Shown piece after piece: positions 6,210 through 52,782 of a stretch of 52,782 nt of DNA. The notes under the pieces are model-generated. The model searched no databases. It saw only the letters and a program-made list of their open reading frames with translations, and had not been told where the DNA came from. A program made the translations under genes and the position numbers. Origin of the DNA: Bacillota bacterium (GTDB lineage: Bacteria; Bacillota; Clostridia; Ch29). Location: positions 1 to 52,782 of the forward strand of contig JAQUCT010000009.1 of assembly GCA_028686075.1 (NCBI GenBank), written 5' to 3'. Position 1 is the first letter of the stretch; each line of letters opens with the position of its first letter.

Positions 6210-6348
6210 ATAGCAAAAACTATTACCGAACTGAATAATCGCTGTGCTTTATTGGAGCAGCAAAACGTTGAATTAATGGTTAAATTAAGATGGTATGAAG
6301 AACAATTCCACCGTAATGCCGGCTTCAAAAGTAATTTTTCTCAACAGT
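6210..6348 (+). pseudogene. IS66-type transposase N-terminal remnant
   Basis: The plus-strand frame reads ITELNNRCALLEQQNVELM followed by KLRWYEEQFHRN. This resembles the coiled-coil N-terminus of IS66-family TnpC transposases (leucine-zipper-like segment followed by KLRWYEEQF). It abuts the IS91 repeat at 6206 directly and has no start codon or remainder. Assignment is by short motif only. Confidence 0.5.
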
Positions 6349-6379
6349 GCCGTGCGACCAATGCAAGGGTGCTGATGGT

Positions 6380-6470
6380 GAGTCTCTGAGGAAAGGTAGC
6401 ACCACACCTGCGAGCATAAGATAAGAGCTATCCAAGGCTCTCGGTGTCGTGAACCCGCATACGTTATCAG
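6380..6470 (+). other. 3' half of attC-like site 6
   Basis: The hairpin GAGC-ATAAGATA / TATCC-AAGGCTC (6411-6440), the segment TCGTGAACCCGCATAC and the R' core GTTATCAG (6463-6470) align position by position with the 3' halves of sites 1, 4 and 5. Because its L' does not pair with the arm at 5906-5920, the two halves may come from different original sites, joined by insertion-sequence activity. Confidence 0.55.
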
Positions 6471-6618
6471 ACAGGCTGAGGAGGCGTTATGGGTTTTTAA
6501 GGAAAATATTTGAATATTAGTGATTGATAAAGATATTTAATGATATAATTAAGCTAGAAAATTACATTATAAGCTCAATCTTTCTAAGAAACAACAAGAA
6601 CGTTGGCACAAAAAGTGT

Positions 6619-6747
6619 ATGTGTTTGATGGAGTTTCAAAATGTAAAAGAAATAGAACTGATTGACTTCAATCGCCAGGGCAATATGGATGATAGCAGTA
6701 ACCGTGGCATCGTGAGCGGATTTAAAAAGGAGGCACCCGGTCTATGA
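6619..6747 (+). CDS. possible small ORF coupled to the MoaE-like gene
   Basis: An open frame of about 42 codons from ATG 6619 (upstream it is open to about 6560 without a start) contains LMEFQNVKEIELIDFNRQG and ends in GFKKEAPGL. Its stop codon overlaps the start of the following gene (ATGA at 6744-6747). There is no clear ribosome binding site and I recognise no family. It could be a remnant of a longer gene or a leader peptide. Confidence 0.25.
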   Translation: MCLMEFQNVKEIELIDFNRQGNMDDSSNRGIVSGFKKEAPGL

Positions 6748-7154
6748 CTAATGGAAAAATGAAAAAACTACCACCATCAATCGACGAATGGCTAAAAGAA
6801 GCAAAGTCTGATTCGGCGGCCTTACAGGAAGGGATGTTTTTGGTTCATAACGGAATCGTACGCCAAACGCCCAAAGCCAAAGTGCGCCAGGGAATCGATG
6901 ACGGTTCGACGGTAAAGGGGATGGAATTTGCCTATGATACAGCAAAGGTTGATGCGGCTATTAGCGAAACCTATAAGATGGACGGTATATTCCATGTCAG
7001 GGCTTGGCTTAATGAAGGCCACCTAGAACTTGGCGACGATATAATGTATGTACTGATAGGCGGCGATATAAGGTCTCATGTTGTAGATGCCTTACAATTC
7101 TTGGTTGAAAGTATAAAAAGCGAATGTGTTACCGAGGTCGAACAAAAATATTAA
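6744..7154 (+). CDS. MoaE-like protein
   Basis: A 136-residue protein resembling the large subunit of molybdopterin synthase (MoaE fold). The pattern is GMFLVHNGIVR (about 30-40) in place of the MoaE GAvvxFxGxVR strand, KGMEFAYD, RAWLNEGHLELGDDIMYVLI (about 86-105) and a C-terminal IKSECVTEVEQ. The C-terminal segment lacks the PxWKKE motif with the catalytic lysine of true MoaE, and no MoaD is nearby, so it may be a divergent paralogue rather than a working molybdopterin synthase subunit. GGAGG (6729-6733) precedes ATG 6744. It lies beyond attC-like site 6 and may be the last cassette. Confidence 0.65.
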   Translation: MTNGKMKKLPPSIDEWLKEAKSDSAALQEGMFLVHNGIVRQTPKAKVRQGIDDGSTVKGMEFAYDTAKVDAAISETYKMDGIFHVRAWLNEGHLELGDDIMYVLIGGDIRSHVVDALQFLVESIKSECVTEVEQKY

Positions 7155-7186
7155 TAAACCAATAAGTAAATAGCGAGCATATACCT

Positions 7187-7323
7187 GCCGATAACTACCC
7201 TGTAAGAATAATGAAGAAGTGCTATAAGAAGCGGTACTATCTACAGGCGAAGGCAGATGGGGAAAGCCGGTATCGCCGATGCCGGTTTTTTTTATGGTAA
7301 ACTTGTATTCGGAGAGTTATGTA
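7187..7323 (+). other. possible degenerate attC-like site 7 and downstream intergenic region
   Basis: GCCGATAAC (7187-7195) partly matches the complement of the preceding cassette start at 6463 (CCTG-C-GATAAC). A GTTATGTA core lies at 7316. Between them are paired CCTGTA/TACAGG arms and a terminator. The evidence is weaker than for sites 1 and 3-5. From here to 7478 I see no gene. Confidence 0.3.
7265..7293 (+). terminator. intrinsic terminator after the MoaE-like gene
   Basis: CCGGTATC-GCC-GATGCCGG (7267-7285, one T-G pair) is followed by eight T residues (7286-7293). Confidence 0.8.
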
Positions 7324-7478
7324 AGGCAATTGCATTAGCAGAAGAGGATACGATGGCGGATAGGCGGGACAATAACGATTATTTGCGCGGCAGTCGCCTG
7401 CGGAGACGGTGAGACGGAGATGAAAGTATGACAGTGGCGGTTAGTTATCGGATAAATAAAAAGGTAGGAGGCGGGAGA

Positions 7479-8015
7479 ATGACCCTGGATGAGTTGATTG
7501 TTTCGAGAAGAAGCGTAAGACAATACAATGAGAAAAAGGTTGAAAGAGATAAGATAGAATCACTTGTTAATGCGGCAATATGGGCTCCCACGGCAGGGAA
7601 CCTCCAGCTACTGCATTTTGTGGTAGTCCGGGATAAAGGGGTCATTGAAAAAGTGAAACTTTTTTCACCGGGAATGCCAAAAACGGCACCCTGTGTAATT
7701 GCAATCTGTGCTGACCTTGAGGAGGCCAGGCTAAGGGGCGGGGAGTTTGCGGAGAAAAATACACCCGTTGATTCGGCCTTCGCGGCACAAAATATACTGC
7801 TAAAAGCTCACCAAATAAGGCTTGGGGCCTGTGTGGTCAAATCATACAACAAAAAATCAATAGGCCGGATTTTAAAACTGCCCGGTGCAATGATGGTACT
7901 TATGTTAATAACGGTAGGTTATTATGACAAACGGCCAAAGGCACCGGCAAGGAAAAGTCTTTCAGAGGTACTCCATTATGAAAACTGGGAAAGCGAGATG
8001 AAACAGGATGAATAG
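7479..8015 (+). CDS. nitroreductase family protein
   Basis: A 178-residue flavoprotein of the nitroreductase superfamily, FMN-dependent and using NAD(P)H on nitro, quinone or flavin-type substrates that cannot be predicted. The N-terminal FMN-phosphate motif RRSVRQYNEKKV (residues 8-19) and APTAGNLQLLHFVVV (about 35-49) are typical, and LGACVV (about 115) lies near the C-terminal FMN contact. The start ATG 7479 has AGGAGG 7 nt upstream; the frame extends further to 7428 without support. The last 8 nt overlap the next gene, so the two are co-translated. Confidence 0.85.
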   Translation: MTLDELIVSRRSVRQYNEKKVERDKIESLVNAAIWAPTAGNLQLLHFVVVRDKGVIEKVKLFSPGMPKTAPCVIAICADLEEARLRGGEFAEKNTPVDSAFAAQNILLKAHQIRLGACVVKSYNKKSIGRILKLPGAMMVLMLITVGYYDKRPKAPARKSLSEVLHYENWESEMKQDE

Positions 8016-8286
8016 AGACTGCCAGGCGAGGATATTTACTTTTCTTCTAACAAGCGCAAGGGGATGCGTGGATGAACCGCCCCTCTACGGGCCGCTTAGG
8101 CTGTTAGAGGCATACTCATTGCTGCTGGGAATGCTAAAATCCGATGAAACCGATGAGTTTTATTATAAACTGAACGAGAAGATTGAAGCATTAAAAGATA
8201 GGTGCATGGAAGATGAAGGTGAGTTTATCGAGGGGCTTGACAGGGTACTGGAGGAACTGACCGGTCACATTATTGATGAGTATTAA
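8008..8286 (+). CDS. small protein of unknown function (DUF6092-like)
   Basis: A 92-residue, largely helical acidic protein. The segment FLLTSARGCVDEPPLYGPLRLLEAY (residues 12-36) resembles the conserved core of the DUF6092 family as I remember it; the rest is amphipathic helix. No membrane segment or catalytic motif is visible. It overlaps the nitroreductase stop by 8 nt (ATGAATAG), so it is probably a functional partner or accessory of that enzyme. A 93-nt gap separates it from the pucR-type gene. Confidence 0.6.
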   Translation: MNRDCQARIFTFLLTSARGCVDEPPLYGPLRLLEAYSLLLGMLKSDETDEFYYKLNEKIEALKDRCMEDEGEFIEGLDRVLEELTGHIIDEY

Positions 8287-8379
8287 GGAGGATGTGTATT
8301 ATAGACAGCGGCAGTATGTGGTGCCGTCGCCCGGAGGTTCTGTTGCAGGGCCAAAATGGGATAATATGGAGGGATAATT

Positions 8380-9528
8380 ATGAGCATTAGCGTCAGAGAA
8401 GCTCTCAGGCTTGAATGTTTCAAAGGGGTAAGGTTTATTGCGGGGGAGGCGGGTTTTGACAGGCTAATAACCCGTGTGAGCGTATTGGAAAGCCCCGACC
8501 TGGATGACTTCGGAACCGCAATGGGTAAGGGGGATTTTTATATATCCAGCTTTTACGCTATTAAGGACGACCCGAAGGCCCAGTTGGATACCCTGAAGAT
8601 ACTGGTGAATACCAATTCAAGCGGTCTTTGTCTGATAGACCTGTATATGGACGACCTGTGTCGCGACGTTAAGGAGTATGCAAACAAAGAAACCTATCCC
8701 ATTGTGATGATATCCAATTTTGTTCCCTATGCTGCGGTTATTACCGAGATAATGGATGCAATAATTAAGCACAAGGAAGACACCATCACCGAGATGACCA
8801 TAAGAAGCCTTCTGCAGCCCAATGTCACCGGCCAGGAGGTTTGCGACACAGCAAAGAGGATAAACAACAAGTTCAGAGACAATATAGGAGCCCTATACCT
8901 CAAGGCGGACTCTGAGGATAAAGAGGGCATCGAAGCATTGAAGCATAGTCATAGGGACAAAGAACACTGGTCTTTTTTAAAGTATGAAGGCGGCATCCTC
9001 ATTATAATGAGTTTCGGTAAGGCGTCCAAGGAACGTATACATATACAGTTAAAACAAGTTACTGAAAGCGTTGATTACTATCTGGATAATTATGGCCTGG
9101 GTATTAGCAGGTTCCACAAGGGGTTGGACAACCTCAACACATGTGTAAGGGAGGCACTTCTTTCCTACGAGGTGTGCGAAGGAAGAAGCGAAAGAAAGGT
9201 CTACTATAACGACCTGGGGGTGTACCGGCTGCTGATGCTCCTAAAGGACGAGCCCGAACTTAAGAGGTATCACGATGAGATAATGATACCCCTTGCGGAC
9301 TATGACGCAAAAAACGGTACAAGCCTTGTGAATACGGCAATATCCTATATTGATAATGACGGTAACTTGGCGAAAACCGCCGCAAATCTATACCAGCACC
9401 AGAACACCATAAGATACCGTCTCAACAAGGTCAGAGAGATTCTGGACATGAAGGAGAGGGGCGTCAGTTTTTATGAAAAAATATCAATTGCAGTAAAAAT
9501 TAATAAAATAATGAAAGAACGTTTGTAA
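8380..9528 (+). CDS. PucR-family transcriptional regulator
   Basis: A 382-residue regulator in three parts. An N-terminal PucR sensory domain (about 1-125) begins SISVREALRLECFKGVRFIAG, a CdaR/GGDEF-like linker domain spans about 150-275, and a C-terminal HTH_30 domain (about 320-375) contains NLAKTAANLYQHQNTIRYRL. The prototype PucR of Bacillus activates purine catabolism, and relatives control use of hydantoins, amino acids and sugars acids in response to the pathway substrate. It lies directly upstream of the transporter and the DUF917/NicX-like genes in the same direction, so it most likely governs them. GGAGGGATAATT precedes the ATG. Confidence 0.85.
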   Translation: MSISVREALRLECFKGVRFIAGEAGFDRLITRVSVLESPDLDDFGTAMGKGDFYISSFYAIKDDPKAQLDTLKILVNTNSSGLCLIDLYMDDLCRDVKEYANKETYPIVMISNFVPYAAVITEIMDAIIKHKEDTITEMTIRSLLQPNVTGQEVCDTAKRINNKFRDNIGALYLKADSEDKEGIEALKHSHRDKEHWSFLKYEGGILIIMSFGKASKERIHIQLKQVTESVDYYLDNYGLGISRFHKGLDNLNTCVREALLSYEVCEGRSERKVYYNDLGVYRLLMLLKDEPELKRYHDEIMIPLADYDAKNGTSLVNTAISYIDNDGNLAKTAANLYQHQNTIRYRLNKVREILDMKERGVSFYEKISIAVKINKIMKERL

Positions 9529-9618
9529 AAACAACAAATCGATTGACATATAATTGTTAAACAACCAAAGGAAAATAAGATTTTATGTAGAAGAACTAAT
9601 ATTTATACAAATAATAAT

Positions 9619-9657
9619 AGCTGCTGTTAATTGAAAATTTATGCACAGCAGTTTTTT
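9619..9657 (+). terminator. terminator between pucR-type gene and transporter operon
   Basis: CTGCTGT (9621-9627) pairs with ACAGCAG (9645-9651), followed by TTTTTT. The loop of 17 nt is long, so efficiency may be modest or conditional. Confidence 0.5.
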
Positions 9658-9750
9658 AAAAAACAAGCAAATTAAAGGGACTACAGTAGTGAAGACAGAG
9701 CTGCGGGATGAGATATTCCGCAGGTTATTATTATCAGGGGGTGTATATTT

Positions 9751-11349
9751 ATGAAATTCCTTTTAAGAGAAAAAAGCATCGTTTTGACAGTGACACTGAT
9801 AGTGCTGGTAGCCGTAATCGCATCGGGATGCGGGGGAAGCAGTACCGGTCAGAACGACACCGGGGAGGAGCAGCCCAAGATAGCGTTTTATGCATTCAAC
9901 AGCGAACCCATACTGGACTGGGACCCAAGCGTGGAGTATTCCAATGGCATAGTGGTACTTAATAATGTTTATGAAACTCTGCTAAGGTACAATCCGATCA
10001 GCAATGAAGTAATTCCACTGCTGGCAGCTGAGTATTCCAAGAGCGATGACGGTCTTACCTGGACTTTCAAACTAAGGCAGGGTGTAAAGTTCCACGACGG
10101 TACCGACCTAAAAGCGGAAGACGTTAAAGCTTCGATTGACAGAACTATAGCTTTAGGTCAGGGAGCGGCCTTTATCTGGGATGCGGTGGAAGAGATAGTA
10201 GTAAAGGATGACTATACAATCGATTTTGAGCTTAATTATCCGGCTCCCCTAGACCTAATTGCCAGTTCGGGCTATGCGGCGTTCATAATGTCAGCCGAAG
10301 CGATAGAATCCAATCCAGACGACTGGTTCTCCCAGGGTAACGAGGCAGGGACCGGTCCCTATATGCTGCAGAGCTTTAAAATGGGCGATGAGGTTGTTAT
10401 GACTAAGTTTGACGACTACTGGAAGGGATGGGACGGCGAGCATTTTGATAAAGTTGTAATAAAGAAAATCCCTGAAACCGCATCAAGACGTCAGTTGGTC
10501 GAAAAGGGGGAAGCGGATGTTACGATGGAGCTTCCCTATGAAGATATTGAAGCACTTAAAGGCAATTCCGCTGTAAACATAATCGATGAGCCATCATTCC
10601 AGAACCTGCTGGTATTTTTCAATACCGAGAAAGCCCCTTTGGACAACAAATTGGTAAGACAGGTACTTTGTTATGCTTTCCCCTATGGAGACGTAGTTAA
10701 GTACGCAATGGGCGGATATGCAACCCAGGGCAGAGGACCTATTCCTGCAGGGCACTGGGGTCATGGAAAGGATTTATTCCAGCATGAATATGACTTGGAC
10801 AAAGCAAAGGAACTGCTGGCCCAGGCCGGATACCCGGATGGGGGGTTGGACCTTTTGTTTACCTATATGGCTGGGGACGAAGCGGAGAAAAAGTCGGCAG
10901 AACTGTATAAAACGGAGCTTTCAAAAATTGGTATCAACCTTGAGATAAGGGGAATGCCGTGGGAAAGCCAGTGGGAATTGGCGAGGGACTCTGATCCAGA
11001 AAAGAGGCAGGACATACTGACAATGTACTGGTGGCCGGATTATGCCAGCCCTTATAGCTGGCTATACAGCTTATACCACAGCGAAGAGGAAATTCTGTTT
11101 AATTTGGCATACTGGAAGAATGCCCGGTTTGACCAGTTAATAGACGAAGGGAACGAAAAGAGCGGTATAGACAGACAGGTAGCGGAAGACCTGTACATCC
11201 AGGCGCAGGAAATTCTTATAGAGGAGACGCCATCGTTGTTTGCCTATGATAAAAGATATGTATGGGTTACAAATAGTTCCTTCAAAGGGTTTGAAAGCAA
11301 CCCCATATATCCCAACGTGGTATTCTTCTATGATACATATCATGAATAG
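9751..11349 (+). CDS. ABC transporter substrate-binding lipoprotein, oligopeptide/nickel type
   Basis: A 532-residue extracytoplasmic solute-binding protein of family SBP_bac_5. It has a type II signal peptide (KFLLREKSIVLTVTLIVLV) and a lipobox ending at Cys27 (ASGC). Family motifs are LLAAEYSKSDDGLTWTFKLRQGVKFHDG (about 90-117) and the C-terminal YPNVVFFYD region. It delivers ligand to the permeases encoded next. AGGGGGTG precedes the ATG. Ligands of this family include peptides, nickel, and small amides; with the catabolic genes downstream a non-peptide ligand is plausible. A hairpin after the gene would give more binding protein than permease. Confidence 0.9.
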   Translation: MKFLLREKSIVLTVTLIVLVAVIASGCGGSSTGQNDTGEEQPKIAFYAFNSEPILDWDPSVEYSNGIVVLNNVYETLLRYNPISNEVIPLLAAEYSKSDDGLTWTFKLRQGVKFHDGTDLKAEDVKASIDRTIALGQGAAFIWDAVEEIVVKDDYTIDFELNYPAPLDLIASSGYAAFIMSAEAIESNPDDWFSQGNEAGTGPYMLQSFKMGDEVVMTKFDDYWKGWDGEHFDKVVIKKIPETASRRQLVEKGEADVTMELPYEDIEALKGNSAVNIIDEPSFQNLLVFFNTEKAPLDNKLVRQVLCYAFPYGDVVKYAMGGYATQGRGPIPAGHWGHGKDLFQHEYDLDKAKELLAQAGYPDGGLDLLFTYMAGDEAEKKSAELYKTELSKIGINLEIRGMPWESQWELARDSDPEKRQDILTMYWWPDYASPYSWLYSLYHSEEEILFNLAYWKNARFDQLIDEGNEKSGIDRQVAEDLYIQAQEILIEETPSLFAYDKRYVWVTNSSFKGFESNPIYPNVVFFYDTYHE

Positions 11350-11355
11350 AAATCC

Positions 11356-11379
11356 AAGGGGCTAGTATTTAGCCCCTTT
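11356..11379 (+). terminator. intercistronic hairpin between binding protein and permease genes
   Basis: GGGGCTA (11358-11364) and TAGCCCC (11370-11376) followed by TTTA. It sits 6 nt after the stop codon and 28 nt before the permease. It is a likely partial terminator or 3'-end stabiliser that adjusts subunit ratios. Confidence 0.55.
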
Positions 11380-11406
11380 ATAGCGTTTTCCGGGGGAGGT
11401 GAGCTT

Positions 11407-12417
11407 TTGAGGTCGTTTATTTTAAAAAGAATAATTCTAGGAGTATTGGTTTTGTTTGGAGTAGTATTGATTGCCTTTGTGCTAACCAGGGTGATTCCTT
11501 CCGACCCTGCCGCACAGTGGGTGGGGCAGCGTGCGACGTCAGAGCAGATAGAGGCAGCAAGTATAGAGCTGGGGCTGGATAAGCCTTTGTACGTGCAATT
11601 GGGTAAATATTTGGCCGACCTGTTTAAAGGCGACCTGGGACGCTCGCTGAGGTCACACCAGCCGGTATCGGCCGAGCTTAAGGCATATCTTCCGGCTACC
11701 GTAGAGCTTGTACTGGTATCCACAATCGTAGCCATTTTTTTAGGCATACCTCTTGGAGTTGTATCAGCCAAGAGAAAGGACCAGCTGGTGGACCATGTAA
11801 GCAGATTCTTTTCGGTGGGTGCTGTGTCGCTACCGACCTTTTGGGTGGGAATGTTCCTGCAGTTAATATTCTACAGATGGTTGGAGCTGCTTCCTCTGGG
11901 AGACCAGCTTAGCATGGGGATAAAGCTGACCTGCGAGATACCCCATATTACAGGTTTTTTAATCTTTGACAGTCTGATAACCGGTGATTTGGTAGTTTTC
12001 AAAGATGCACTGGCCCATATAATACTGCCGGGAATAACCGTTGCCCTGTACCCGATAGGGTTGGTGGCACGTATGACCCGTTCGGCCCTTCTCGAGATAC
12101 TGGACGAGGATTATATAAGGGCGGCCCGGTCTTACGGACTGCCTGAAAGGATGGTGCTGTGGTCCTATGCGATTAAAAACTCCCTTGGCCCAACTGCTAC
12201 CGTGGTGACGCTGTCCATAGGCTATACCCTGGTAAATACGTTCCTTGTGGAAGCCATATTCAGCTGGCCGGGGATTGGGAGCTACATTTCATCGGCAGTT
12301 ATAAGTCTTGATTATCCGGCGATAATGGGTGTAACAATCTTTTCAGCCTGCGCCTACGTGGTGTTGAACCTAATTGCAGACGTCATAATTGCCTTGGACC
12401 CGAGGGTCCGGGTATAG
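11407..12417 (+). CDS. ABC transporter permease, DppB/OppB type
   Basis: A 336-residue inner-membrane permease with an N-terminal helix (IILGVLVLFGVVLIAFVLTR) and five further membrane segments. The cytoplasmic coupling loop DYIRAARSYGLPERMVLWSYAIKNSL (about 237-262) contacts the ATPases. The TTG start at 11407 is supported by GGGGGAGGTGA a few nt upstream. It forms the transport pore with the next gene's product. The gene order binding protein, B, C, D, F is the standard one of the peptide/nickel family. Confidence 0.9.
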   Translation: MRSFILKRIILGVLVLFGVVLIAFVLTRVIPSDPAAQWVGQRATSEQIEAASIELGLDKPLYVQLGKYLADLFKGDLGRSLRSHQPVSAELKAYLPATVELVLVSTIVAIFLGIPLGVVSAKRKDQLVDHVSRFFSVGAVSLPTFWVGMFLQLIFYRWLELLPLGDQLSMGIKLTCEIPHITGFLIFDSLITGDLVVFKDALAHIILPGITVALYPIGLVARMTRSALLEILDEDYIRAARSYGLPERMVLWSYAIKNSLGPTATVVTLSIGYTLVNTFLVEAIFSWPGIGSYISSAVISLDYPAIMGVTIFSACAYVVLNLIADVIIALDPRVRV

Positions 12418-12430
12418 GGAGGTGCACAGC

Positions 12431-13324
12431 ATGACAAAAAACTTAGGACTAATTAATTCAATCAAACCAAGAATCAAAGAGATTAGACTTTCCCTCTACC
12501 TTTTGGGCAGAAACAGACTGACCCGGCTGTCGCTGGTGGTGGTTATTCTTCTTATACTTATTGCTTTGGTAGCACCATATATAGTTCCCTACCCGGAGCA
12601 CATAGAAACCGAGACCAACCCTGAAGACAAGCTTTTACTTCCATCCGGCGACTATTTTTTCGGAACCGATGAGCTGGGAAGAGATGTTTTCAGTCGTGTC
12701 CTTTACGGTACAAGGATCTCGCTGCAGACAGCCCTTGTAGCGGTAGGGCTGGCACTTTTAATAGGAATACCCCTTGGGGCCATTGCGGGAGCTACCGGGG
12801 GCATAGTCGACGAAATAATAATGAGGATTACAGATATATTTTTAAGTTTCCCGCCTTTGCTGCTTGCTATTGCCATAGCTGCATTCCTCGGCCCAAGCCT
12901 TGAGAATGCGATGCTTGCCATAGCGGTATCCTGGTGGCCGTGGTATACAAGGCTTATAAGGGGTCAGGCAGTATCCATAAGGGAAAGACAGTTTGTTAAA
13001 GCGGCAAGGGCAATAGGGACCCCTCCGATGAAGATAGTATTCGGGCACATAGTGCCCAACTGCATAGCACCGGTTATAGTTCAGGCATCTATGGATATAG
13101 GGGGAGTTATATTAACCATTGCTTCGCTCAGCTTTTTGGGACTGGGCGCGCAGCCTCCTACTCCCGAGTGGGGGCTTATGGTAAGCACCAGCAGGAACTA
13201 TTTCCTGAATGCATGGTGGTACAGCATTTTTCCGGGGCTTGCCATATTTGTAACGGTTTTGGTATTTAACCTGCTGGGGGACGGTTTGAGGGAGATTCTG
13301 GACCCTAAGACCAGAAAGATTTAA
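12431..13324 (+). CDS. ABC transporter permease, DppC/OppC type
   Basis: A 297-residue permease. Its amphipathic N-terminus and first membrane helix (LSLVVVILLILIALVAPYIV) are followed by GTDELGRDVFSRVLYGTR, the diagnostic motif of the OppC/DppC subfamily, then four to five helices and the coupling loop FVKAARAIGTPPMKIVFGHI. ATG 12431 is preceded by GGGAGGTG, whereas the in-frame ATG at 12389 overlaps the upstream gene and has no ribosome binding site. It heterodimerises with the preceding permease. Confidence 0.9.
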   Translation: MTKNLGLINSIKPRIKEIRLSLYLLGRNRLTRLSLVVVILLILIALVAPYIVPYPEHIETETNPEDKLLLPSGDYFFGTDELGRDVFSRVLYGTRISLQTALVAVGLALLIGIPLGAIAGATGGIVDEIIMRITDIFLSFPPLLLAIAIAAFLGPSLENAMLAIAVSWWPWYTRLIRGQAVSIRERQFVKAARAIGTPPMKIVFGHIVPNCIAPVIVQASMDIGGVILTIASLSFLGLGAQPPTPEWGLMVSTSRNYFLNAWWYSIFPGLAIFVTVLVFNLLGDGLREILDPKTRKI

Positions 13325-13336
13325 GGGGTGGAAGAA

Positions 13337-14338
13337 ATGAGCGGGTATTTCGAGGTAAAAAACCTGAAGGTGGATTTTAAAACCTTTGAAGGGCAGAAAA
13401 ATGTACTCGATATAGATTCCCTTGCACTTGATAAGGGAGAAACCTTTGGGATAGTAGGAGAAAGCGGAGCGGGTAAAACCGTGCTTGCCCTTACAATACT
13501 GCTCCTTTTATCGGCACCCCCCGCCGTTATAAGGAGCGGTAGCATTAATTTAGATGGAGAAAACCTGCTGCAAAAGACCGAGAAAGAGATGCAAAAAATC
13601 CGGGGCAGAAATATTTCCATGATATTTCAGGACCCCATGTCCACTTTAAATCCGGTTTTTACGGTGGGAGAACAGATAATACGAGTGTTCAAGAACAACA
13701 AGAGAATCACCAGGAAGGATGCACAAAAAGAAGCCCTTAGGATGATTGAGACGGTAAAGCTGCCGGATGCAGCGAATATTATGGCAAAATATCCCCACGA
13801 ACTGAGCGGTGGCCAAAGACAGAGGATAGTAATAGCCATAGCCCTTTCCTGTGGCTCAGAGTTCCTGATAGCCGACGAACCGACGCGCAACCTTGATGTT
13901 ACTATACAGGCCGGAATACTGAAACTGGTGGCAGAACTCCAGAAGGAACTGGGGGTTACCGTTCTTTTTATCGCAAACAATCTGGGCCTTGTTTCAGCCA
14001 TATGCAGTAGAGTTGCCATACTGCATGAGGGACGGATTGTGGAAACGGGTAAAGTTAAGGAAGTTTTAAAGGACCCCAGGCACCCGTACACTTTAACGCT
14101 ATTAAACGCTATACCCAGGGATAAAGGCGAAAAAGTAAACCTGGACAATATAGTCTTCAAAGATAGTGAAAATGCAAACGAAAAGGGATGTCGGTATTAC
14201 TACCGGTGTCCTGAAAAAAAGGACCTGTGCCGTGACACCGAACCCGTTTGCCGCCTAATTGCAGGCACGCATACGGTGGCCTGTCACATGGCCTTCAAGG
14301 GAGGTGAAGCCGGTGGCAAACAGCATACTGAAGGTTAG
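13337..14338 (+). CDS. ABC transporter ATP-binding protein, DppD/OppD type
   Basis: A 333-residue ATPase with Walker A GESGAGKT (41-48), signature LSGGQRQRI (about 156-164), Walker B FLIADEPT (about 176-183) and a C-terminal oligopeptide-type extension with cysteines (CRYYYRCPEKKDLC). After Walker B it reads RNLDVT instead of the usual TALDVT. The start ATG 13337 is chosen because AGGGGTGG lies just upstream; a GTG at 13328 falls inside that site. Its 3' end overlaps the next ATPase gene by 26 nt. Confidence 0.9.
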   Translation: MSGYFEVKNLKVDFKTFEGQKNVLDIDSLALDKGETFGIVGESGAGKTVLALTILLLLSAPPAVIRSGSINLDGENLLQKTEKEMQKIRGRNISMIFQDPMSTLNPVFTVGEQIIRVFKNNKRITRKDAQKEALRMIETVKLPDAANIMAKYPHELSGGQRQRIVIAIALSCGSEFLIADEPTRNLDVTIQAGILKLVAELQKELGVTVLFIANNLGLVSAICSRVAILHEGRIVETGKVKEVLKDPRHPYTLTLLNAIPRDKGEKVNLDNIVFKDSENANEKGCRYYYRCPEKKDLCRDTEPVCRLIAGTHTVACHMAFKGGEAGGKQHTEG

Positions 14339-46633: not shown

Positions 46634-46716
46634 CAGGGTATTTATCGCACCATTTGAGGGAAACAAAGATTGACAGGGATATGTCAATTGCATTAAAATA
46701 TAAATGACAAGTACAT

Positions 46717-46815
46717 AGCTCCGATTCCGCATACCTGATAGCTAATGGCCCATGGGATGCGGAACGACAGGGTACGGCTGGAAACGACCGTGCCTCCCAG
46801 GGTGGAAAGGAGACC
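46717..46815 (+). ncRNA. structured leader resembling a Moco/Tuco riboswitch
   Basis: Outer CTCC/GGAG pair (46719-46722 with 46809-46812), helix TTCCGCAT/ATGCGGAA (46725-46732 with 46757-46764) capped by a loop containing GCTAATGGCCCATG, and helix ACGG/CCGT (46774-46777 with 46788-46791) with a GAAA tetraloop (46781-46784), then GTGCCTCCCAGG and GGAAAGGAGACC. This arrangement and these segments resemble my recollection of the molybdenum/tungsten cofactor riboswitch class. The downstream genes, molybdopterin-fold lipoproteins, an FmdE-like protein and an ABC importer, are of the kind controlled by that class. A covariance search would settle it. Confidence 0.55.
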
Positions 46816-46844
46816 TATAGCTGCATTTGCGCTAGATGGTTAAT

Positions 46845-46876
46845 AAATGCGTCTTCTTCTAGAAGACGCATTTTTG
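46845..46876 (+). terminator. leader terminator of the putative Mo/W locus
   Basis: AAATGCGTCTTCT (46845-46857) pairs perfectly with AGAAGACGCATTT (46861-46873), followed by further Ts. Placed between the structured leader and the first gene, it is the likely expression platform. Confidence 0.8.
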
Positions 46877-46939
46877 GTAGGCAGTCTTAATACTCCTTAA
46901 ACTTTGGGTAATGGGGTTTTTGTATTGGAGGGATGTAGT

Positions 46940-47464
46940 ATAGGGGTAACCAGGTTTATTGCATTTATTGCGTTGATATGCTTGCTTACTGCATGTGCTA
47001 GTGTGCAAACAATCCCCGTGTACGTTGAAGAGCTGTCAGTAGATGGGGAGACCATAAGAAGGCTTGGCACATATGAAGGCGGAGGCATTACTGCAGTTTA
47101 CATAATACAAAACGGGGAGGGCGGGGCAAGGGCCGTTATACAGGCAGCAGAAGCGCAAGGCTTCAATGATACGATTAGGATTCTGGTGCTGACCAACGTG
47201 CAAACCGGCCTGACAGAGAGGGTTGAAGTACTTGAGCATAATGAAACTGAGGACTATGGGGGATACGTAACAGAAGAATGGTTCCTTGGCAGGTTTGTCG
47301 GCAAGGATGCCGAGACAAGCCTGCGGCTTGTTAAAATGGCTGTCAAAAGCAAGGAGGATATTGTGGCCATTACCGGTGCTACATATACAAGCCAGGCCAT
47401 AGTGGACTCAGTGAATATGTGTCTTATAAACTACAGGAGAATAATTGAGGAGGTCGAATTGTAG
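46940..47464 (+). CDS. FMN-binding domain lipoprotein (RnfG/NqrC-like)
   Basis: About 174 residues. The signal peptide VTRFIAFIALICLL ends in the lipobox LTAC, so it is anchored outside the membrane. The FMN_bind domain has YIIQNGEGGARAVIQAA and ends with AITGATYTSQAIVDSVN, where the threonine before the final serine region is the site of covalent FMN attachment (by ApbE) in relatives. The start is uncertain: GGAGGG (46928-46933) points to ATA 46940, giving an ideal lipoprotein N-terminus; TTG 46925 or 46904 would place charged and cysteine residues before the signal helix and lack ribosome binding sites. It is first gene after the riboswitch-like leader, and the next gene starts at the following base. 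Confidence 0.75.
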   Translation: MGVTRFIAFIALICLLTACASVQTIPVYVEELSVDGETIRRLGTYEGGGITAVYIIQNGEGGARAVIQAAEAQGFNDTIRILVLTNVQTGLTERVEVLEHNETEDYGGYVTEEWFLGRFVGKDAETSLRLVKMAVKSKEDIVAITGATYTSQAIVDSVNMCLINYRRIIEEVEL

Positions 47465-48595
47465 ATGAGAAAACAAGTGAGGATACTTCAATTTTTAGCC
47501 CTGCTGCTTGTAATGACGCTTGTTGCTGTTGCGTGCTCCGCACCGGTGGAGGCACCGGCAGAAACCGGCAATGGGGCCGAAGAACAACCCAGCGGGCAAG
47601 AAGGGGAGAAAATAGTGATTTCTGGGCTTGAAAGTACCGATATAGAGGTTATAGTGGAAGAAATAAAGGACCTTAAGTCGGTAACGGTGAATGCCACATC
47701 GGTTAGCTCCTCCGGCGAAGAAAATCAGTATACCGTTACAGGGCCGATTTTTGACGACCTTTTAAAAAAGTATGGTAAGTCCCAGGATGACCTTTCGGGG
47801 ATACGGCTGGTGGCAGGGGACGGTTATTCCATAGAGGTGTCGCAGGAGATACTGCAAAGCCGTGACATAATTCTTGCCCATACCATAGACGGACAGCCGC
47901 TGGATGAAAAGACAAGGCCCATAAGGGTGGTTATCCCGGAGGAAAGGGCAATGTACTGGATAAGGAACCTGGTTAAGATTGAAGTCCTGGAAAGCGCGCC
48001 GAAGGCCGAGGTGGGAAGGGTATTAATACTTGAGACATTAATCTCACAGGCAAATGCGGAAGACTATACCTATTACGAGAGTACCGACAAGGCTGTTAAG
48101 GTGGAGGAACTGCTGGAGTTGCTTGCATTGGAAAGTCTTCCGGATACCGCCTCCTTTGTTGCATCCGACGGTTTTGAAAAGAACGAGCAGTTGGATATAT
48201 TCTCCAAGGGATACATAAAATTTACCGGTGAGGATGCTCCCCTTTTCCTGTCTCCCGACTTGCCAAAGGGTATGCACATAAAAAGCATATACCTTTGCTC
48301 CATGGGGGATGTGGCACTGGTGTCGCAGCAGATGGCGGCGGAGGTGCTGGGCACCAAAGAGGTTAAGGATAAGGTAGGAGTAGACCTTAAGGAACTTATA
48401 AATAAGGCCGGGCTAGCCGATGCCGACAAATACCTGCTTACCGCTGCCGATGGTTATACGGTGGAGATTTTGCGGGAGGACAGGGAAAAGGGCGTAGTGT
48501 TTATAAACAGCAAGGGTCAGGTTACCACCTTCTTCGAAGACCTTCCCAAGAACACGCAGGTTAAGGACTTTCTTTCCATTGAAGGAATCGAATAA
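47465..48595 (+). CDS. lipoprotein with sulfite-oxidase-like molybdopterin-fold domains
   Basis: A 376-residue lipoprotein: signal LLLVMTLVAVAC with lipobox Cys24, a low-complexity Pro/Glu linker (27-48), then a domain (about 50-180) with GIRLVAGDGYSIEV and LDEKTRPIRVVIPEERAMYWIRNLVKIEV, which matches the C-terminal strand pattern of the oxidoreductase molybdopterin-binding fold (PF00174). A second, less obvious repeat of that domain spans about 200-376 (ASDGFEKNEQ, LTAADGYTVEI). The cysteine that ligates Mo in true enzymes is not seen. It may bind a cofactor or metal rather than catalyse. GGAGG precedes the ATG by about 10 nt. Confidence 0.7.
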   Translation: MRKQVRILQFLALLLVMTLVAVACSAPVEAPAETGNGAEEQPSGQEGEKIVISGLESTDIEVIVEEIKDLKSVTVNATSVSSSGEENQYTVTGPIFDDLLKKYGKSQDDLSGIRLVAGDGYSIEVSQEILQSRDIILAHTIDGQPLDEKTRPIRVVIPEERAMYWIRNLVKIEVLESAPKAEVGRVLILETLISQANAEDYTYYESTDKAVKVEELLELLALESLPDTASFVASDGFEKNEQLDIFSKGYIKFTGEDAPLFLSPDLPKGMHIKSIYLCSMGDVALVSQQMAAEVLGTKEVKDKVGVDLKELINKAGLADADKYLLTAADGYTVEILREDREKGVVFINSKGQVTTFFEDLPKNTQVKDFLSIEGIE

Positions 48596-48624
48596 GCAAA
48601 AACATCGGATGGGAGGCCTTCTCT

Positions 48625-49374
48625 GTGATTGTACAAAGACTGATAGATGAAGTAAGACAGGACGCTTTATATAGAACCCTTGCCGAGGTAAGGATAGGTA
48701 TTGGATATACGGCGGTGCTTCTTGATGACGGCAGCTGCGGCGTATCGTACACCTTCAGGAATGAGTTGGGCCCCCAGTGCGGACTTATAGACGAGGCCGG
48801 AGACCTTGCAGGTAAAAACTGCAGTGAAATTATACTCTGGGCCATGGATTTAAACCTGGCAAAATGTGCAGTAGGCCTGGCCTGTATAAACGCAATCCTT
48901 CAGCAGCATCTTGAGGGTTTTTCCACCGGTAATGCCCTGGAGCAGATAGACTTCAGGTCGGGAGACACCGTTGGGATGATAGGCTATTTCAAACCGGTTC
49001 TTGACAGGGTGGAGGGAAAGGCCAAGGATGTTTATATTTTCGAGCGCAACATAACCGATGGAGGCCTCCTGCCGGACTGGGCAGAGGATATATACCTGCC
49101 TAAATGCGATGTTGTAATAATAACCGGCACCACGCTTCTTAACAAGACTATGGATGGAATACTTGAGAAGTGCCATAATGCAAGGGAGATAGTGGTTATG
49201 GGACCCACTGCGGCATTATGCCCTAAGGTTTACAGGGAACATGGCGTCACGATATTGGCCGGTGTAAGGGTTGTGGATGCACAAAGGGTATTGAATATAG
49301 CCGGTGAAGGCGGCGGCGGTCTGGTGCTTAAGGACAGCGTGGTGCAGGTTTTCAGGCGGCTTGACAAGCGGTAA
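48625..49374 (+). CDS. DUF364/DUF4213 protein, putative heavy-metal chelation
   Basis: A 249-residue protein. The N-terminal DUF4213 part (about 1-85, RIGIGYTAVLLDDGSCGVSYTF) is followed by a Rossmann-like DUF364 domain (about 95-245) with GDTVGMIGYFKPVLDRV, IFERNI, LPKCDVVIITGTTLLNKT and VVMGPTAALCPKVY. The family is annotated as putative heavy-metal chelation and recurs beside metal ABC importers, but no reaction is established. GTG 48625 follows GGGAGG by 8 nt. It lies between the molybdopterin-fold lipoprotein and the FmdE-like gene in the same operon. Confidence 0.85.
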   Translation: MIVQRLIDEVRQDALYRTLAEVRIGIGYTAVLLDDGSCGVSYTFRNELGPQCGLIDEAGDLAGKNCSEIILWAMDLNLAKCAVGLACINAILQQHLEGFSTGNALEQIDFRSGDTVGMIGYFKPVLDRVEGKAKDVYIFERNITDGGLLPDWAEDIYLPKCDVVIITGTTLLNKTMDGILEKCHNAREIVVMGPTAALCPKVYREHGVTILAGVRVVDAQRVLNIAGEGGGGLVLKDSVVQVFRRLDKR

Positions 49375-49388
49375 GCGGAGGTGCGAAT

Positions 49389-49793
49389 ATGGACGGCATT
49401 GACTGGAACATTGACAATCCACAGGTCAAAAAGATTATAGAGGCTGCCCGGGTGCTGCACTGGGGTACAATGAGCATAGGCCTTGCCCTGGGCTTAAGGT
49501 CGGGGATAAAGGCCATGGGTGCCCTGGGGCTTAAAAGGAAACAGGCGGACTGGGTGAAGGTGTCCGGAAGCTACTGTTTCGCCCAGGGAGTGGAAGCCAT
49601 AACCGGCTGCAGCCTGCTGCGGGGCAAGATGGAGTTTGAACACCGCACCGGCGGCGAAGCGGAGTTCCACCTCTGGGGCCAGGGCAAGCACCTGAGGGTA
49701 AAGCCCTATAGCAGGGGATTTCACGACGGGCAGCAGGTAATGGACATGGAGGAAGGGGAGATATTTGAAAAGATAGAAATACTGGATCCGTGA
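49389..49793 (+). CDS. FmdE-like protein
   Basis: A 134-residue protein resembling formylmethanofuran dehydrogenase subunit E. The opening HWGTMSIGLALGLRSGIKAM (24-43) corresponds to the FmdE HGHxCPGxxLGxR motif, but with HWGTMS replacing HGHxCP, so the usual cysteine there is missing. SYCFAQGVEAITGCSLLRGKMEF (about 61-83) keeps the C-x-(D)-A-x-x-TGC pattern. FmdE family proteins occur without methanogenesis genes in loci for Mo/W metabolism. GGAGGTGCGAAT stands before ATG 49389; the spacing to the preceding gene is 14 nt. Confidence 0.7.
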   Translation: MDGIDWNIDNPQVKKIIEAARVLHWGTMSIGLALGLRSGIKAMGALGLKRKQADWVKVSGSYCFAQGVEAITGCSLLRGKMEFEHRTGGEAEFHLWGQGKHLRVKPYSRGFHDGQQVMDMEEGEIFEKIEILDP

Positions 49794-49836
49794 TTATCTA
49801 TTGTTAAATAACACATAAAGGTATATATCTCAACAT

Positions 49837-49914
49837 GTCATCCTTAGTGAAACGAAGGATCTTATGTCTGTTTCTAAGCAAGATTCTTCGGGTTTTGCTT
49901 CTTAAGAACGACAG
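49837..49914. repeat. dispersed palindromic repeat, copy 3
   Basis: GTCATCCTTAGTGAAACGAAGGAT at the left and AAGATTCTTCGGGTTTTGCTTCTTAAGAACGAC at the right form an imperfect inverted repeat related to copies at 17702 and 35066. It lies between two genes of the putative Mo/W locus and may act as a transcript boundary. Confidence 0.55.
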
Positions 49915-49982
49915 ATAGAGTAAGTAACGCTGTTATTACGCTTTATATAGTTCTAATTAAAACTTTTTTAGGGGGAAAAAAC

Positions 49983-50492
49983 ATGAACAAGAATCATCTT
50001 GTAAGGTTCTATCCTGTATTGTTGATTGTATTGACTAGTATAATGCTGGGAGGCTGCAGCCAGCCGGCCGGCGATACTTCCGGAGCCGATGCCCCGCCAA
50101 TGGAGGAATGGAGCATTACCGTTGAGGTTGTCGGAGGAGAAACCGTTGAGTTTACCAATGAGGATGCATTGGAAATTGGACCGGTTGAGGTGGCAATCGC
50201 CGAAAAGGATAAGGACACCACCAAGGAAGAAGAGCAGTGGACCGGAGTTTTGCTTAAGGACATACTGGAGTATGCCGGGGTCACCGAATTCTCGGTTGTA
50301 TCGGTGGAAGCGTCCGACGGCTATGCCAGGGAATACGAGCCGGAGATTGCAAACAGCGAAGGCACAGCCCTGGGCTGGTGCCGCAACGGTGAGCTTCTGG
50401 GCGAGGAGGATGGTTTTGTAAAGCTGGTTGTTGACGGCAAAGGCAAAAACTGGCAGATTAAACAGGTTGCAAAGATAGTAGTTATTCCTTAG
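49983..50492 (+). CDS. small lipoprotein with molybdopterin-fold-like domain
   Basis: A 169-residue lipoprotein: signal FYPVLLIVLTSIMLGG with lipobox Cys25, then a single compact domain (about 42-169). Segments QWTGVLLKDILEYAG, SVVSVEASDGYAREY and KLVVDGKGKNWQIKQVAKIVVI follow the strand order of the oxidoreductase molybdopterin-binding fold and resemble half of the protein at 47465-48595. No Mo-ligating cysteine is apparent. AGGGGGAA precedes the ATG. The permease gene of the importer starts 9 nt after its stop, so it may act as an extra ligand-binding component. Confidence 0.7.
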   Translation: MNKNHLVRFYPVLLIVLTSIMLGGCSQPAGDTSGADAPPMEEWSITVEVVGGETVEFTNEDALEIGPVEVAIAEKDKDTTKEEEQWTGVLLKDILEYAGVTEFSVVSVEASDGYAREYEPEIANSEGTALGWCRNGELLGEEDGFVKLVVDGKGKNWQIKQVAKIVVIP

Positions 50493-50500
50493 ACAACGTC

Positions 50501-51508
50501 ATGAGAAAAAAACTGACAGCGGCAGGATTGGCTGTGGCCCCATTTTTGCTTATATTCATATCGCTATTCATAGGCAGGTATCCACTGTCTATGGGGCAGG
50601 TTATAGGCGTCCTGGGCATAAAGACCGGGCTGTCCGCCACCGCACCCCTTCCCATACATATAAACGTGGTATGGGACATACGCCTTCCCAGGGCGATTCT
50701 GGGAGCCTTAGTGGGAGGCAGCCTTGCGGTAAGCGGGGCAGCCTTCCAGGGGCTTTTTCGAAACCCGCTCGTAAGCTCCGGGGTGCTGGGGGTAAGTGCC
50801 GGTGCGGGGTTTGGGGCATCATTAGCAATCATACTGTTTGGTAGCGATACCTTTTACGTCTATGCCTTTGCCTTTTGTTTCGGAATTCTTGCGGTGGTTT
50901 TAAGCTATGTGATAGGCACCAATTACACTTCTACTCCCACCATTATGCTGGTGCTTGGCGGGGTGGTTGTTTCATCCATATTCTCGTCCCTGGTATCGCT
51001 TCTTAAATATATTGCCGATCCCTATGAGCAGCTGCCCAGCATAGTTTTCTGGCTGATGGGCAGTATGGCGTCGGCAAGGTTTAAAGATATAGCCATTTCA
51101 GCTATACCCATGGGTGTGGGAATGGCAGGCCTTGTTGCAATGCGGTGGCGGCTCAACGTCCTCTCGATGGACGACAGGGAGGCCCAGGCCCTGGGTGTTA
51201 ATATAATATTCGTAAAGGGCCTTGCCATACTTTTTGCAACTCTTGCTACCGCCGGCGCGGTATGCGTAAGCGGGGTAATAGGATGGGTAGGGCTTGTTGT
51301 GCCCCATATGGGAAGGATGCTATCAGGCAACGATAATACGGTTCTTGTGCCCACGTGCCTGTCCATAGGAGCAGGCTATCTAATAATAGTGGATAATGTG
51401 GCAAGGACCCTTACCGGCTCGGAGATACCGTTAGGGATTCTGACTTCTATAATGGGGGCACCTTTTTTTGTATATCTCCTTAAAAAAACCAAGGGACGGG
51501 GATGGTAA
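50501..51508 (+). CDS. FecCD/BtuC-type ABC importer permease
   Basis: A 335-residue permease with about ten membrane helices. Family motifs are VWDIRLPRAILGALVGGSLAVSGAAFQGLFRNPL (57-90), SSGVLGVSAGAGFGA (92-106), REAQALGV (about 225-232, cytoplasmic coupling helix) and VGLVVPHMGRML (about 265-276). Relatives import vitamin B12, haem, siderophores, or molybdate/tungstate (MolB). ATG 50501 sits 9 nt after the lipoprotein gene. The ligand here is inferred, from neighbours, to be a Mo/W compound or metal cofactor. Confidence 0.9.
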   Translation: MRKKLTAAGLAVAPFLLIFISLFIGRYPLSMGQVIGVLGIKTGLSATAPLPIHINVVWDIRLPRAILGALVGGSLAVSGAAFQGLFRNPLVSSGVLGVSAGAGFGASLAIILFGSDTFYVYAFAFCFGILAVVLSYVIGTNYTSTPTIMLVLGGVVVSSIFSSLVSLLKYIADPYEQLPSIVFWLMGSMASARFKDIAISAIPMGVGMAGLVAMRWRLNVLSMDDREAQALGVNIIFVKGLAILFATLATAGAVCVSGVIGWVGLVVPHMGRMLSGNDNTVLVPTCLSIGAGYLIIVDNVARTLTGSEIPLGILTSIMGAPFFVYLLKKTKGRGW

Positions 51509-51511
51509 AGC

Positions 51512-52318
51512 ATGTCAATAATAGAGGCCGAAAAAGCGTCCTTTTCTTACGGACAGCAGAATGTACTTCAGAATATCAGCATGAAGGTAAGAGAGGGAGA
51601 GATGTTTTGCCTGTTCGGACCCAACGGTTGCGGTAAGACCACCCTCATCCAGTGCCTGCTGGGAATACTTAAAACCAGTAGCGGTACCATAAGGCTGCGG
51701 GGCAGGGACATAAGAAGTATGAAGGCGGTAGAAATCGCCAGGGAGTTGGCGTATATACCCCAGGCCCATGAAAAGCCTTTTCCCTACAAAGTAATAGACG
51801 TGGTGCTTATGGGTAGGGTATCCTATACCGGTTTGTTTTCGCTTCCGAAGAAAGAAGACAGAAAAACCGCCGAGGAGGCCCTGGAAAGGGTGGGTATGCT
51901 GTCTTTCAAGGATAAGCCCTATACGCAGCTTAGCGGCGGTGAGACGCAACTTGTTATGGTGGCAAGGGCCCTGGCGCAGCAAACGCCGGTCCTTGTAATG
52001 GATGAACCGACGGCGCACCTTGACTTCAGAAACGAGCTTGGCTTTTTGGAAACAATAGTACGCCTTGTAAAGGACACAAAAATAACCGTGGTTATGGCGA
52101 CGCATTTCCCCAACCACGCCTTTTATTTTGAAAACTCCAATATAGAATCAAGGGTCGCCCTTATGAACGAAAAGATGTTCTATGCCCAGGGCAGGCCCGA
52201 TGAGGTACTGACAGAGTATAATATGTATGACATATTTAAAATAAAGTCAAAACTCATAGCCCATCAGTGGGAAGAAGGAAAATTAAAGCAGATTCTTCCG
52301 ATAAAAACATATGGGTAG
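51512..52318 (+). CDS. FecE/BtuD-type ABC importer ATPase
   Basis: A 268-residue ATPase: Walker A GPNGCGKTT (36-44), Q-loop YIPQAHEKPFPY (about 81-92), signature LSGGETQLV (about 138-146), Walker B VLVMDEPTAHLDF (about 160-172) and H-switch MATHFPNH (about 198-205). The signature reads ETQLV where most relatives have ERQLV or EQQLV. It energises the permease encoded 3 nt upstream. The sequence starts MSIIEAEKASFSYGQQNVLQNIS. Confidence 0.9.
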   Translation: MSIIEAEKASFSYGQQNVLQNISMKVREGEMFCLFGPNGCGKTTLIQCLLGILKTSSGTIRLRGRDIRSMKAVEIARELAYIPQAHEKPFPYKVIDVVLMGRVSYTGLFSLPKKEDRKTAEEALERVGMLSFKDKPYTQLSGGETQLVMVARALAQQTPVLVMDEPTAHLDFRNELGFLETIVRLVKDTKITVVMATHFPNHAFYFENSNIESRVALMNEKMFYAQGRPDEVLTEYNMYDIFKIKSKLIAHQWEEGKLKQILPIKTYG

Positions 52319-52339
52319 TATCCTTAAAGGGGGAGTTTC

Positions 52340-52782
52340 ATGAAAGACTATGGTAGTAGATTGGTAATTTGTATAATAATGATATCGCTAATTCTGTCCG
52401 GCTGCGGACAAACCGGCACTCAGCAAGCATCAAAAACGCCGGAGGACGTATCTGGCTTTTATATAACCGACAGTTTCGGCAGGGAAGCTTTTGTCCCGGA
52501 CGAGGTGGAAAATATAGCCTGTCTGTATTCCTTTGCTGGGTACGCGGTAAGCCTCCTTGGCAGGGGAGATAATCTGGTGGCGGTACCCGACGGTCTTAAG
52601 AGGGACGTAATGCTCACAGAAATAATCCCGCAGGTAATGGAGGCGGCGGTGCCCAGGAAGTCCGGCAAAATAAACATTGAAGAGCTTTTAAGGCAAAAAC
52701 CCGATGTAGTAATAATAAGAGGCGATACCGCCAGAGATGAAAAGGAAGTAGAGCAGCTTGAAAAAACCGGCCTTAACTATAT
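52340..52782 (+). CDS. ABC importer substrate-binding lipoprotein (BtuF/FecB type), truncated by window end
   Basis: The first 147 codons of a periplasmic-binding-protein family (PF01497) lipoprotein. The signal LVICIIMISLILSG ends at lipobox Cys22. SGFYITDSFGREAFVPDEVENIACLYS (about 37-63) is the family's first strand pair, followed by KINIEELLRQKPDVVII. GGGGGAG precedes ATG 52340. It completes the importer with the permease and ATPase. Its residues do not reveal the ligand; homologues bind Fe-siderophores, cobalamin, or molybdate/tungstate. Confidence 0.85.
   Translation, partial: MKDYGSRLVICIIMISLILSGCGQTGTQQASKTPEDVSGFYITDSFGREAFVPDEVENIACLYSFAGYAVSLLGRGDNLVAVPDGLKRDVMLTEIIPQVMEAAVPRKSGKINIEELLRQKPDVVIIRGDTARDEKEVEQLEKTGLNY

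Follow-up and report, generated by a model that had tools for sequence, protein, structure and literature searches.

A candidate salvage operon for the tungsten/molybdenum pterin cofactor behind a Moco riboswitch in Clostridia

The window analysed here is the whole 52,782-nucleotide contig JAQUCT010000009.1 of a Bacillota bacterium (Clostridia, lineage Ch29). It is contig C7 of a 95-contig genome. At its end, a riboswitch-type leader precedes genes for surface lipoproteins and an importer, and the locus raises the question of what is imported. The initial annotation of positions 46,717–52,782 proposed two answers: either the surface proteins catch cofactor or metal-pterin that has been released and pass it to the importer, or tungstate is imported and metal insertion proteins act in the cytoplasm. 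The operon is probably a salvage system for a tungsten/molybdenum pterin cofactor, taken up via an energy-coupling factor (ECF) transporter, the exact substrate being predicted. The computational observations behind this reading are the gene content, synteny, riboswitch, protein folds, catalytic motifs, and an association with tungsten aldehyde oxidoreductase (AOR) and with the loss of MoaA and MoeA.

The Leader Is a Moco Riboswitch

Three elements are found upstream of the first gene, the second of them predicted to sense the molybdenum cofactor (Moco) or its tungsten form:

46670..46699, + strand: promoter-like site, TTGACA-18-TAAAAT, 11 of 12 consensus matches
46707..46828, + strand: Moco riboswitch aptamer (RF01055), P3-lacking (tungsten-cofactor type), 64.5 bits against a cut-off of 36, E 2.6e-13
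46845..46875, + strand: 13-bp stem with T tail, an intrinsic-terminator-like expression platform by sequence and RNA fold

The covariance score of the leader passes the Rfam gathering threshold, and the riboswitch suspected in the initial annotation is thereby identified as RF01055. The P3 columns of the RF01055 alignment are deleted in all six Moco riboswitches of this genome. Absence of P3 in Moco RNAs has been tied to the tungsten cofactor (Tuco) by Regulski et al. in 2008 (PMC2408646). Control by Fur or cobalamin had been named as evidence that would speak against a molybdenum/tungsten role; the control element here is neither a Fur nor a cobalamin element. Within the family of the window, DUF364 is located downstream of a Moco riboswitch in all five cases.

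The Operon Continues Beyond the Window

The genes behind the leader are as follows:

46904..47464, + strand: FMN_bind (RnfG-like) lipoprotein, start codon uncertain; PF04205, 44.1 bits, cut-off 22
47465..48595, + strand: OMB2, lipoprotein with tandem Oxidored_molyb-like (pterin-fold) domains, no Mo-ligating Cys; PF00174, 38.5 bits, cut-off 24
48625..49374, + strand: DUF4213/DUF364 protein, 66.3 and 146.2 bits; PDB homologues 3npg/3l5o
49389..49793, + strand: FmdE-like protein; PF02663, 29.7 bits, cut-off 22.9
49983..50492, + strand: OMB1, Oxidored_molyb lipoprotein with PruR-like fold; PF00174, 36.6 bits; best Foldseek match PruR 7kom
50501..51508, + strand: MolB-like permease; FecCD, 274.7 bits; HI1471 (2nq2), E 1.7e-73
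51512..52318, + strand: MolC-like ATPase; PF00005
52340..52782, + strand: 5′ part of a MolA-like (Peripla_BP_2-type) substrate-binding lipoprotein, cut by the contig end; 77% identity to residues 1–147 of the intact G005 protein

Rfam and Pfam bear out the collinear order described earlier: riboswitch, FMN_bind lipoprotein, two Oxidored_molyb lipoproteins, DUF364, FmdE and a FecCD-type importer. The DUF364 and FmdE proteins both pass the Pfam gathering scores; against PDB, the FmdE-like protein matches spurious repeat proteins only.

The window stops inside the substrate-binding protein gene. The gene group is syntenic in a relative of the same family, G005, where the equivalent operon is unbroken on one contig (G005:C37, L015). 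Its first half runs riboswitch, FMN_bind, OMB2, DUF364, FmdE, OMB1, MolB, MolC and MolA. MolA is followed by a TiaS-TCKD-like protein, the ECF S component, a phosphodiesterase lipoprotein, OMB3, ECF A, A′ and T, a MobB/Fe-S protein, and a kinase. In the genome of the window (G000) this second half is found on contig C31 (C31:1–6760; phosphodiesterase protein 72% identity). The stretch from OMB1 to the kinase is unbroken in G001:C172. From this synteny, C7 is likely to join C31 physically, with a gap of ~1 kb between them.

In G003 and G004, the operon keeps DUF364 but has neither FmdE nor MolABC. MolABC is therefore an optional add-on module of the operon in the family of the window. In G003, a truncated MolA-like binding protein with a short N-terminus fused to it (L069, G003:C24, 6028–6666) is apparently what is left of a lost MolABC module; this relative keeps the ECF cassette. 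Outside the family, a Clostridiaceae metagenome-assembled genome (MAG) also shows MolABC joined to the ECF cassette: two tandem Moco riboswitches (L076, 3438–3716) precede an operon of kinase, MolB, MolC, MolA, TiaS-like protein, FMN, OMB2 and ECF genes.

The ECF Cassette Is the Conserved Core

The genes on C31 encode an ECF transporter. The S component matches PF09819 (50.8 bits, cut-off 25.2) and the T component matches CbiQ (102.1, cut-off 25). The best matches of the two ATPases encoded with them are ECF ATPases, at scores below the equivalog cut-offs.

A genome-wide pattern scan for the S component yielded 80 loci. They lie in Firmicutes, Actinomycetota, Dehalococcoidia and Cloacimonadota, and in a single record titled Sumerlaeota. 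With profiles built for this analysis, an Oxidored_molyb-type protein is a neighbour of the S component in 73 of 79 loci, a MobB/Fe-S protein in 48, the phosphodiesterase in 41, the kinase in 39, and FMN_bind in 18. MolB, MolA and DUF364 are seen in 3 each. The ECF cassette is the conserved core of the system across several phyla.

Among 64 loci having at least 2.5 kb of upstream sequence, 40 have a Moco riboswitch upstream, as detected by a covariance model built from the riboswitches of this clade. Matches at E<1e-6 lie on the strand of the ECF operon in 49 of 50 cases. Rfam confirms the riboswitch at 13 of 16 loci tested, including loci of Chloroflexota, Actinomycetota and Cloacimonadota.

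Two minor features accompany the cassette. FmdE-like proteins adjoin the S component in Pelotomaculum, Gelria and Syntrophopropionicum (L100, L108 and L120), which is a second link of FmdE to the system. In a genome without MoaA and MoeA, a group II intron (RF02001) is located about 2 kb past the cassette (L182, 17635–17814, + strand).

Association with AOR and with Loss of MoaA and MoeA

The comparative sample consists of 399 genomes of the phylum, and a carrier is a genome with the S component at E≤1e-30. Within this sample, AOR is present in 37 of 40 carriers versus 168 of 332 non-carriers (p 1e-7). When the comparison is limited to good-quality AOR-positive genomes, 10/33 carriers lack MoaA versus 5/148 non-carriers (odds ratio 12, p 1.8e-5), or 7/21 versus 5/63 when counted by family (p 0.008). 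All ten of these MoaA-less carriers are also without MoeA. In nine of the ten, a Moco riboswitch lies before the ECF operon; seven are confirmed by Rfam, and P3 is lacking where shown. A riboswitch for the finished cofactor, in front of an importer in genomes unable to make that cofactor, is the signature of vitamin salvage. The co-occurrence proposed as a check in the initial annotation is positive for the cassette, both with AOR and with MoaA/MoeA loss.

Incompleteness of MAGs can mimic gene loss; absence of MoaA and MoeA is seen in single-contig genomes too. In genus g102, the single-contig genome G095 contains MoaA and two MoeA and no cassette, and the single-contig genome G133 contains the cassette and AOR and neither MoaA nor MoeA. 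This pair is a natural swap of cofactor synthesis genes versus cassette. Clostridiaceae bacterium M8S5 is an example of an isolate with neither MoaA nor MoeA. G005 of the window's family is without MoaA and MoeA (scored for these two genes). In G247, a full-length AOR gene is located about 10 kb from the cassette. Four good-quality, AOR-positive genomes (G060, G111, G271 and G343) have no MoaA, MoeA or detected ECF cassette, which represents either another import route or missing data.

These distributions also bear on whether the metal is already in the imported pterin. The ECF transporter could instead import a metal-free precursor (molybdopterin (MPT), cyclic pyranopterin monophosphate or a related pterin), with the metal supplied via MolABC, TupABC or ModABC and inserted inside the cell. 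MolABC, DUF364 and FmdE share the operon in the family of the window, a MoeA-type protein is kept in three MoaA-less carriers (G443, G448 and G449), and the pocket of PruR, a protein described below, suits small pterins. However, the ten good-quality MoaA-less AOR-positive carriers all lack MoeA as well, without which metal insertion would need to be spontaneous, and the importer is controlled by the finished-cofactor riboswitch in nine of them. We consider a metal-free precursor unlikely.

Uptake of the finished cofactor could have a wider consequence. Whole lineages of anaerobes could be auxotrophs for the finished tungsten cofactor, having no MoaA or MoeA and keeping tungsten AOR. The metal-pterin of their neighbours would be caught by surface "cofactor-phores" and imported by the ECF transporter under a tungsten-cofactor riboswitch. 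The chances for and against this generalization appear about even.

Surface Proteins Have the Sulfite Oxidase/PruR Fold Without the Metal Cysteine

The two lipoproteins of the window had been described as having a molybdopterin-enzyme fold and no visible Mo-ligand cysteine. This holds over 37 and 17 homologues, in which the lipobox Cys is the sole conserved one. Where sulfite oxidase (SUOX) has its Cys, the two lipoproteins have Ser or another residue. The SUOX fold is assigned to OMB1, to OMB3 and to the first domain of OMB2. In comparison with OMB1, the first domain of OMB2 reaches 99.9% probability and the third 96.9%, while the second is weak. The N-terminus of the phosphodiesterase lipoprotein is a divergent SUOX-type domain as well (96.7% probability against OMB1).

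Profiles of the surface proteins match sulfite dehydrogenases and a pterin-binding protein. OMB2 alone has no meaningful match in PDB; its profile shows weak sulfite oxidase matches there, which locate the Cys position. The AlphaFold model of OMB1 has a mean predicted local distance difference test score (pLDDT) of 82 with a disordered N-terminus. Its best fold matches by Foldseek are PruR (7kom, rank 1, E 7.4e-08), sulfite dehydrogenases, and W-loaded YedY.

PruR, a periplasmic protein of SUOX fold, binds a pterin and has no Mo-ligating Cys (7kom, 7kos; PMC13259868), and is therefore a precedent for pterin binding without enzymatic function. The OMB proteins resemble it in the fold, the lack of the Cys and the location outside the cytoplasm. 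They differ in being lipoproteins, in tandem or fused to a phosphodiesterase, and in being tied to a transporter, whereas PruR is tied to DcpA signalling. Their ligand is predicted.

The same proteins could be read as surface molybdo- or tungsto-enzymes, or as redox proteins for electron transfer that combine FMN_bind with the SUOX fold, the transporters merely feeding them. An FMN_bind/RnfG-like lipoprotein and the SUOX fold are indeed present, and the Moco RNAs listed by Regulski et al. include some at putative sulphite oxidase genes of S. wolfei. None of the homologues examined has the metal-ligating Cys, and this explanation is hardly credible.

Processing Proteins

About 94% of the phosphodiesterase sequences keep the metal residues of the alkaline phosphatase superfamily, and 88% have the Thr that is presumed to be the nucleophile; the residues are assigned after the pattern of the family. 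The kinase passes Pfam APH (24.5 bits, cut-off 23.2). Its model (pLDDT 94) has a RIO/PRPK/APH fold, and residues K47, D144, N149 and D160 are invariant. The MobB-like protein passes TIGR00176 (82.6, cut-off 76.2). Four C-terminal Cys are invariant in it, and a fifth is seen in 93%. The direction in which the phosphodiesterase and kinase act is presumed in the model below.

MolABC and Metal Uptake

The closest solved relative of the permease is HI1471 (MolB, 2nq2; E 1.7e-73). Haem/cobalamin permeases follow, the best at 2.4e-44. Siderophore, haem and cobalamin, the substrates regarded earlier as pointing away from molybdenum or tungsten, are rejected on this similarity and on the Moco riboswitch. 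MolABC of H. influenzae (HI1470-1472) imports molybdate, and its MolA binds tungstate too (PMC4031551). Because it is MolABC-like, the FecCD-type importer of the window probably carries molybdate/tungstate. The permease family is common to both systems, as the binding-protein family and the Mo/W oxyanion probably are, while the importer here is under a Moco riboswitch and shares a cofactor operon with DUF364, FmdE and a TiaS-like protein.

A second Moco-riboswitch operon in the genome of the window includes a paralogous MolABC (L010, G000:C35:12000-26000, 2436–13684). Its order is lipoprotein, MolA, MolB, MolC, lipoprotein, DUF364, ModE-like helix-turn-helix (HTH) protein, NTPase, methyltransferase, permease, YqeC and MocA-like protein. 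The MolA-type protein of the window is cut; the L010 paralogue matches HI_1472 at 4.7e-15, and 4ovk better. The two L010 lipoproteins have weak similarity to Oxidored_molyb, and membership is not claimed. Operons like ModABC and TupABC, identified by reading the sequences, are also under Moco riboswitches in this genome.

These data invite the explanation that the whole cluster is only for molybdate/tungstate uptake, with MolABC and ECF both importing the oxyanion and the lipoproteins and DUF364 binding metal. It draws on the HI1471-like permease, the HI1472-like paralogous binding protein, the second MolABC and DUF364 operon, and published contexts of DUF364 with Mo/W/V transport (PMC2954201). 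On the other hand, the ECF cassette is without MolABC in nearly all loci, the surface proteins have a pterin-binding fold, and the cassette occurs in MoaA/MoeA-less genomes, where bare metal is useless. Such a cluster is improbable, and an ECF transporter for metal only is rejected as making little sense in those genomes. Both readings of the initial annotation survive in part. Tungstate import fits the MolABC-like module, which coexists with a probable pterin importer in one operon. Surface capture of a cofactor or metal-pterin is well supported, and the importer served is most likely the ECF transporter further down the operon, not the FecBCD importer of the window.

A Model of Cofactor Salvage and Points Against It

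Beyond the point that the import system serves the cofactor, the following steps are a proposal. When the cofactor is scarce, the P3-lacking Moco/Tuco riboswitch would let transcription pass the terminator. Membrane-anchored proteins of the SUOX/PruR fold without metal Cys would bind the metal-pterin outside the cell, and the FMN_bind lipoprotein might keep the pterin reduced. The phosphodiesterase lipoprotein, with its own pterin-type domain, could strip nucleotide or phosphate. The ECF transporter (S, A, A′ and T) would then bring the pterin into the cell, where the APH/RIO-type kinase could put phosphate back, and the MobB/Fe-S protein could bind the cofactor or pass it on. In the family of the window, the extra MolABC-type importer with DUF364 and FmdE would probably supply the metal oxyanion. 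The functions assigned here to the FMN lipoprotein, DUF364 and FmdE are likewise putative.

Several facts weigh against salvage of the cofactor. The organism of the window encodes MoaA and MoeA, and there the system would only supplement cofactor synthesis; MoaA is retained in many carriers. The phosphodiesterase and kinase are missing from several loci of genomes without cofactor genes. The genomes are sampled unevenly over the phylogeny, some of them are MAGs, and carriers are unevenly spread over families. The S component has no match among solved proteins in PDB at E up to 1. Its family, PF09819, is named for cobalt, and we take it to include YkoE, the thiamin-precursor component. Finally, the catchers may hold a smaller pterin than Moco, by analogy with PruR, whose pocket reportedly has no room for Moco (PMC13259868).

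Membership in PF09819 and the signalling role of PruR could also suggest that the ECF transporter imports another pterin or vitamin (folate-type pterin, thiamin precursor or cobalt) or serves PruR-like pterin signalling. The repeated position behind the Moco riboswitch across phyla, the MobB-family member in the operon, and the association with AOR and with MoaA/MoeA loss make this very improbable.

Relation to Known Systems

The salvage system proposed here resembles ECF vitamin importers that are paired with salvage enzymes and controlled by a cofactor riboswitch, such as QrtT-QueK-QueL with PreQ1 and RibU with FMN (PMC11477304). Common features are S, A, A′ and T components, processing enzymes, and a product-sensing riboswitch. 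The predicted metal-pterin substrate, the pterin-fold lipoproteins and the MobB/Fe-S protein are different. No Moco class is included among the riboswitch-controlled coenzyme transporters of Sun et al. 2013 (PMC3766115). The aptamer, the P3-lacking tungsten type and the terminator platform are as in the Moco/Tuco riboswitch class (RF01055; PMC2408646), whereas the riboswitch here controls an importer in genomes that have no genes for Moco synthesis. The S. wolfei Moco RNAs beside "sulphite oxidase" genes were an exception to the Moco/Tuco rule in 2008 (PMC2408646). These genes may encode surface proteins of the present type, which would explain the exception.

Finished Moco is also taken from outside by C. 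elegans, as dietary Moco (PMC9793310). That case is a eukaryote with an unknown transport mechanism, and the 2022 paper still asks how Moco crosses membranes (PMC9793310), whereas a defined bacterial transporter is proposed here. No bacterial importer of Moco, Tuco or MPT was found in the literature searched, which leaves out subscription papers and preprints and is no proof of absence.

With a dedicated importer in bacteria, the sharing of cofactor within anaerobic communities would become testable. Both Moco and its tungsten form are sensitive to air, and neither is known to move freely from one bacterial cell to another. An importer would explain how MoaA/MoeA-less genomes run tungsten enzymes and would give functions to several orphan families. 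It could also make exogenous Moco deliverable to cells, which bears on human Moco deficiency.

Other Features

A divergent MoaE-like protein is encoded at 6744–7154 (+ strand) of the window (PF02391, E 1e-7). MoaE (PF02391) is uninformative as a marker, since most carriers with MoaA and MoeA are also without a recognised MoaE. Recognised MoaE is rare among the MoaA- and MoeA-positive Firmicutes tested (8 matches in 60 genomes). Because most of them have none, molybdopterin synthase may be unusual in these Firmicutes.

On another contig of the same genome (L007, G000:C39), Moco riboswitches at 494–613 and 1190–1305 (− strand) flank a ModE-like HTH gene. The riboswitch pair and this gene sit upstream of a NuoE/hydrogenase-type gene cluster.

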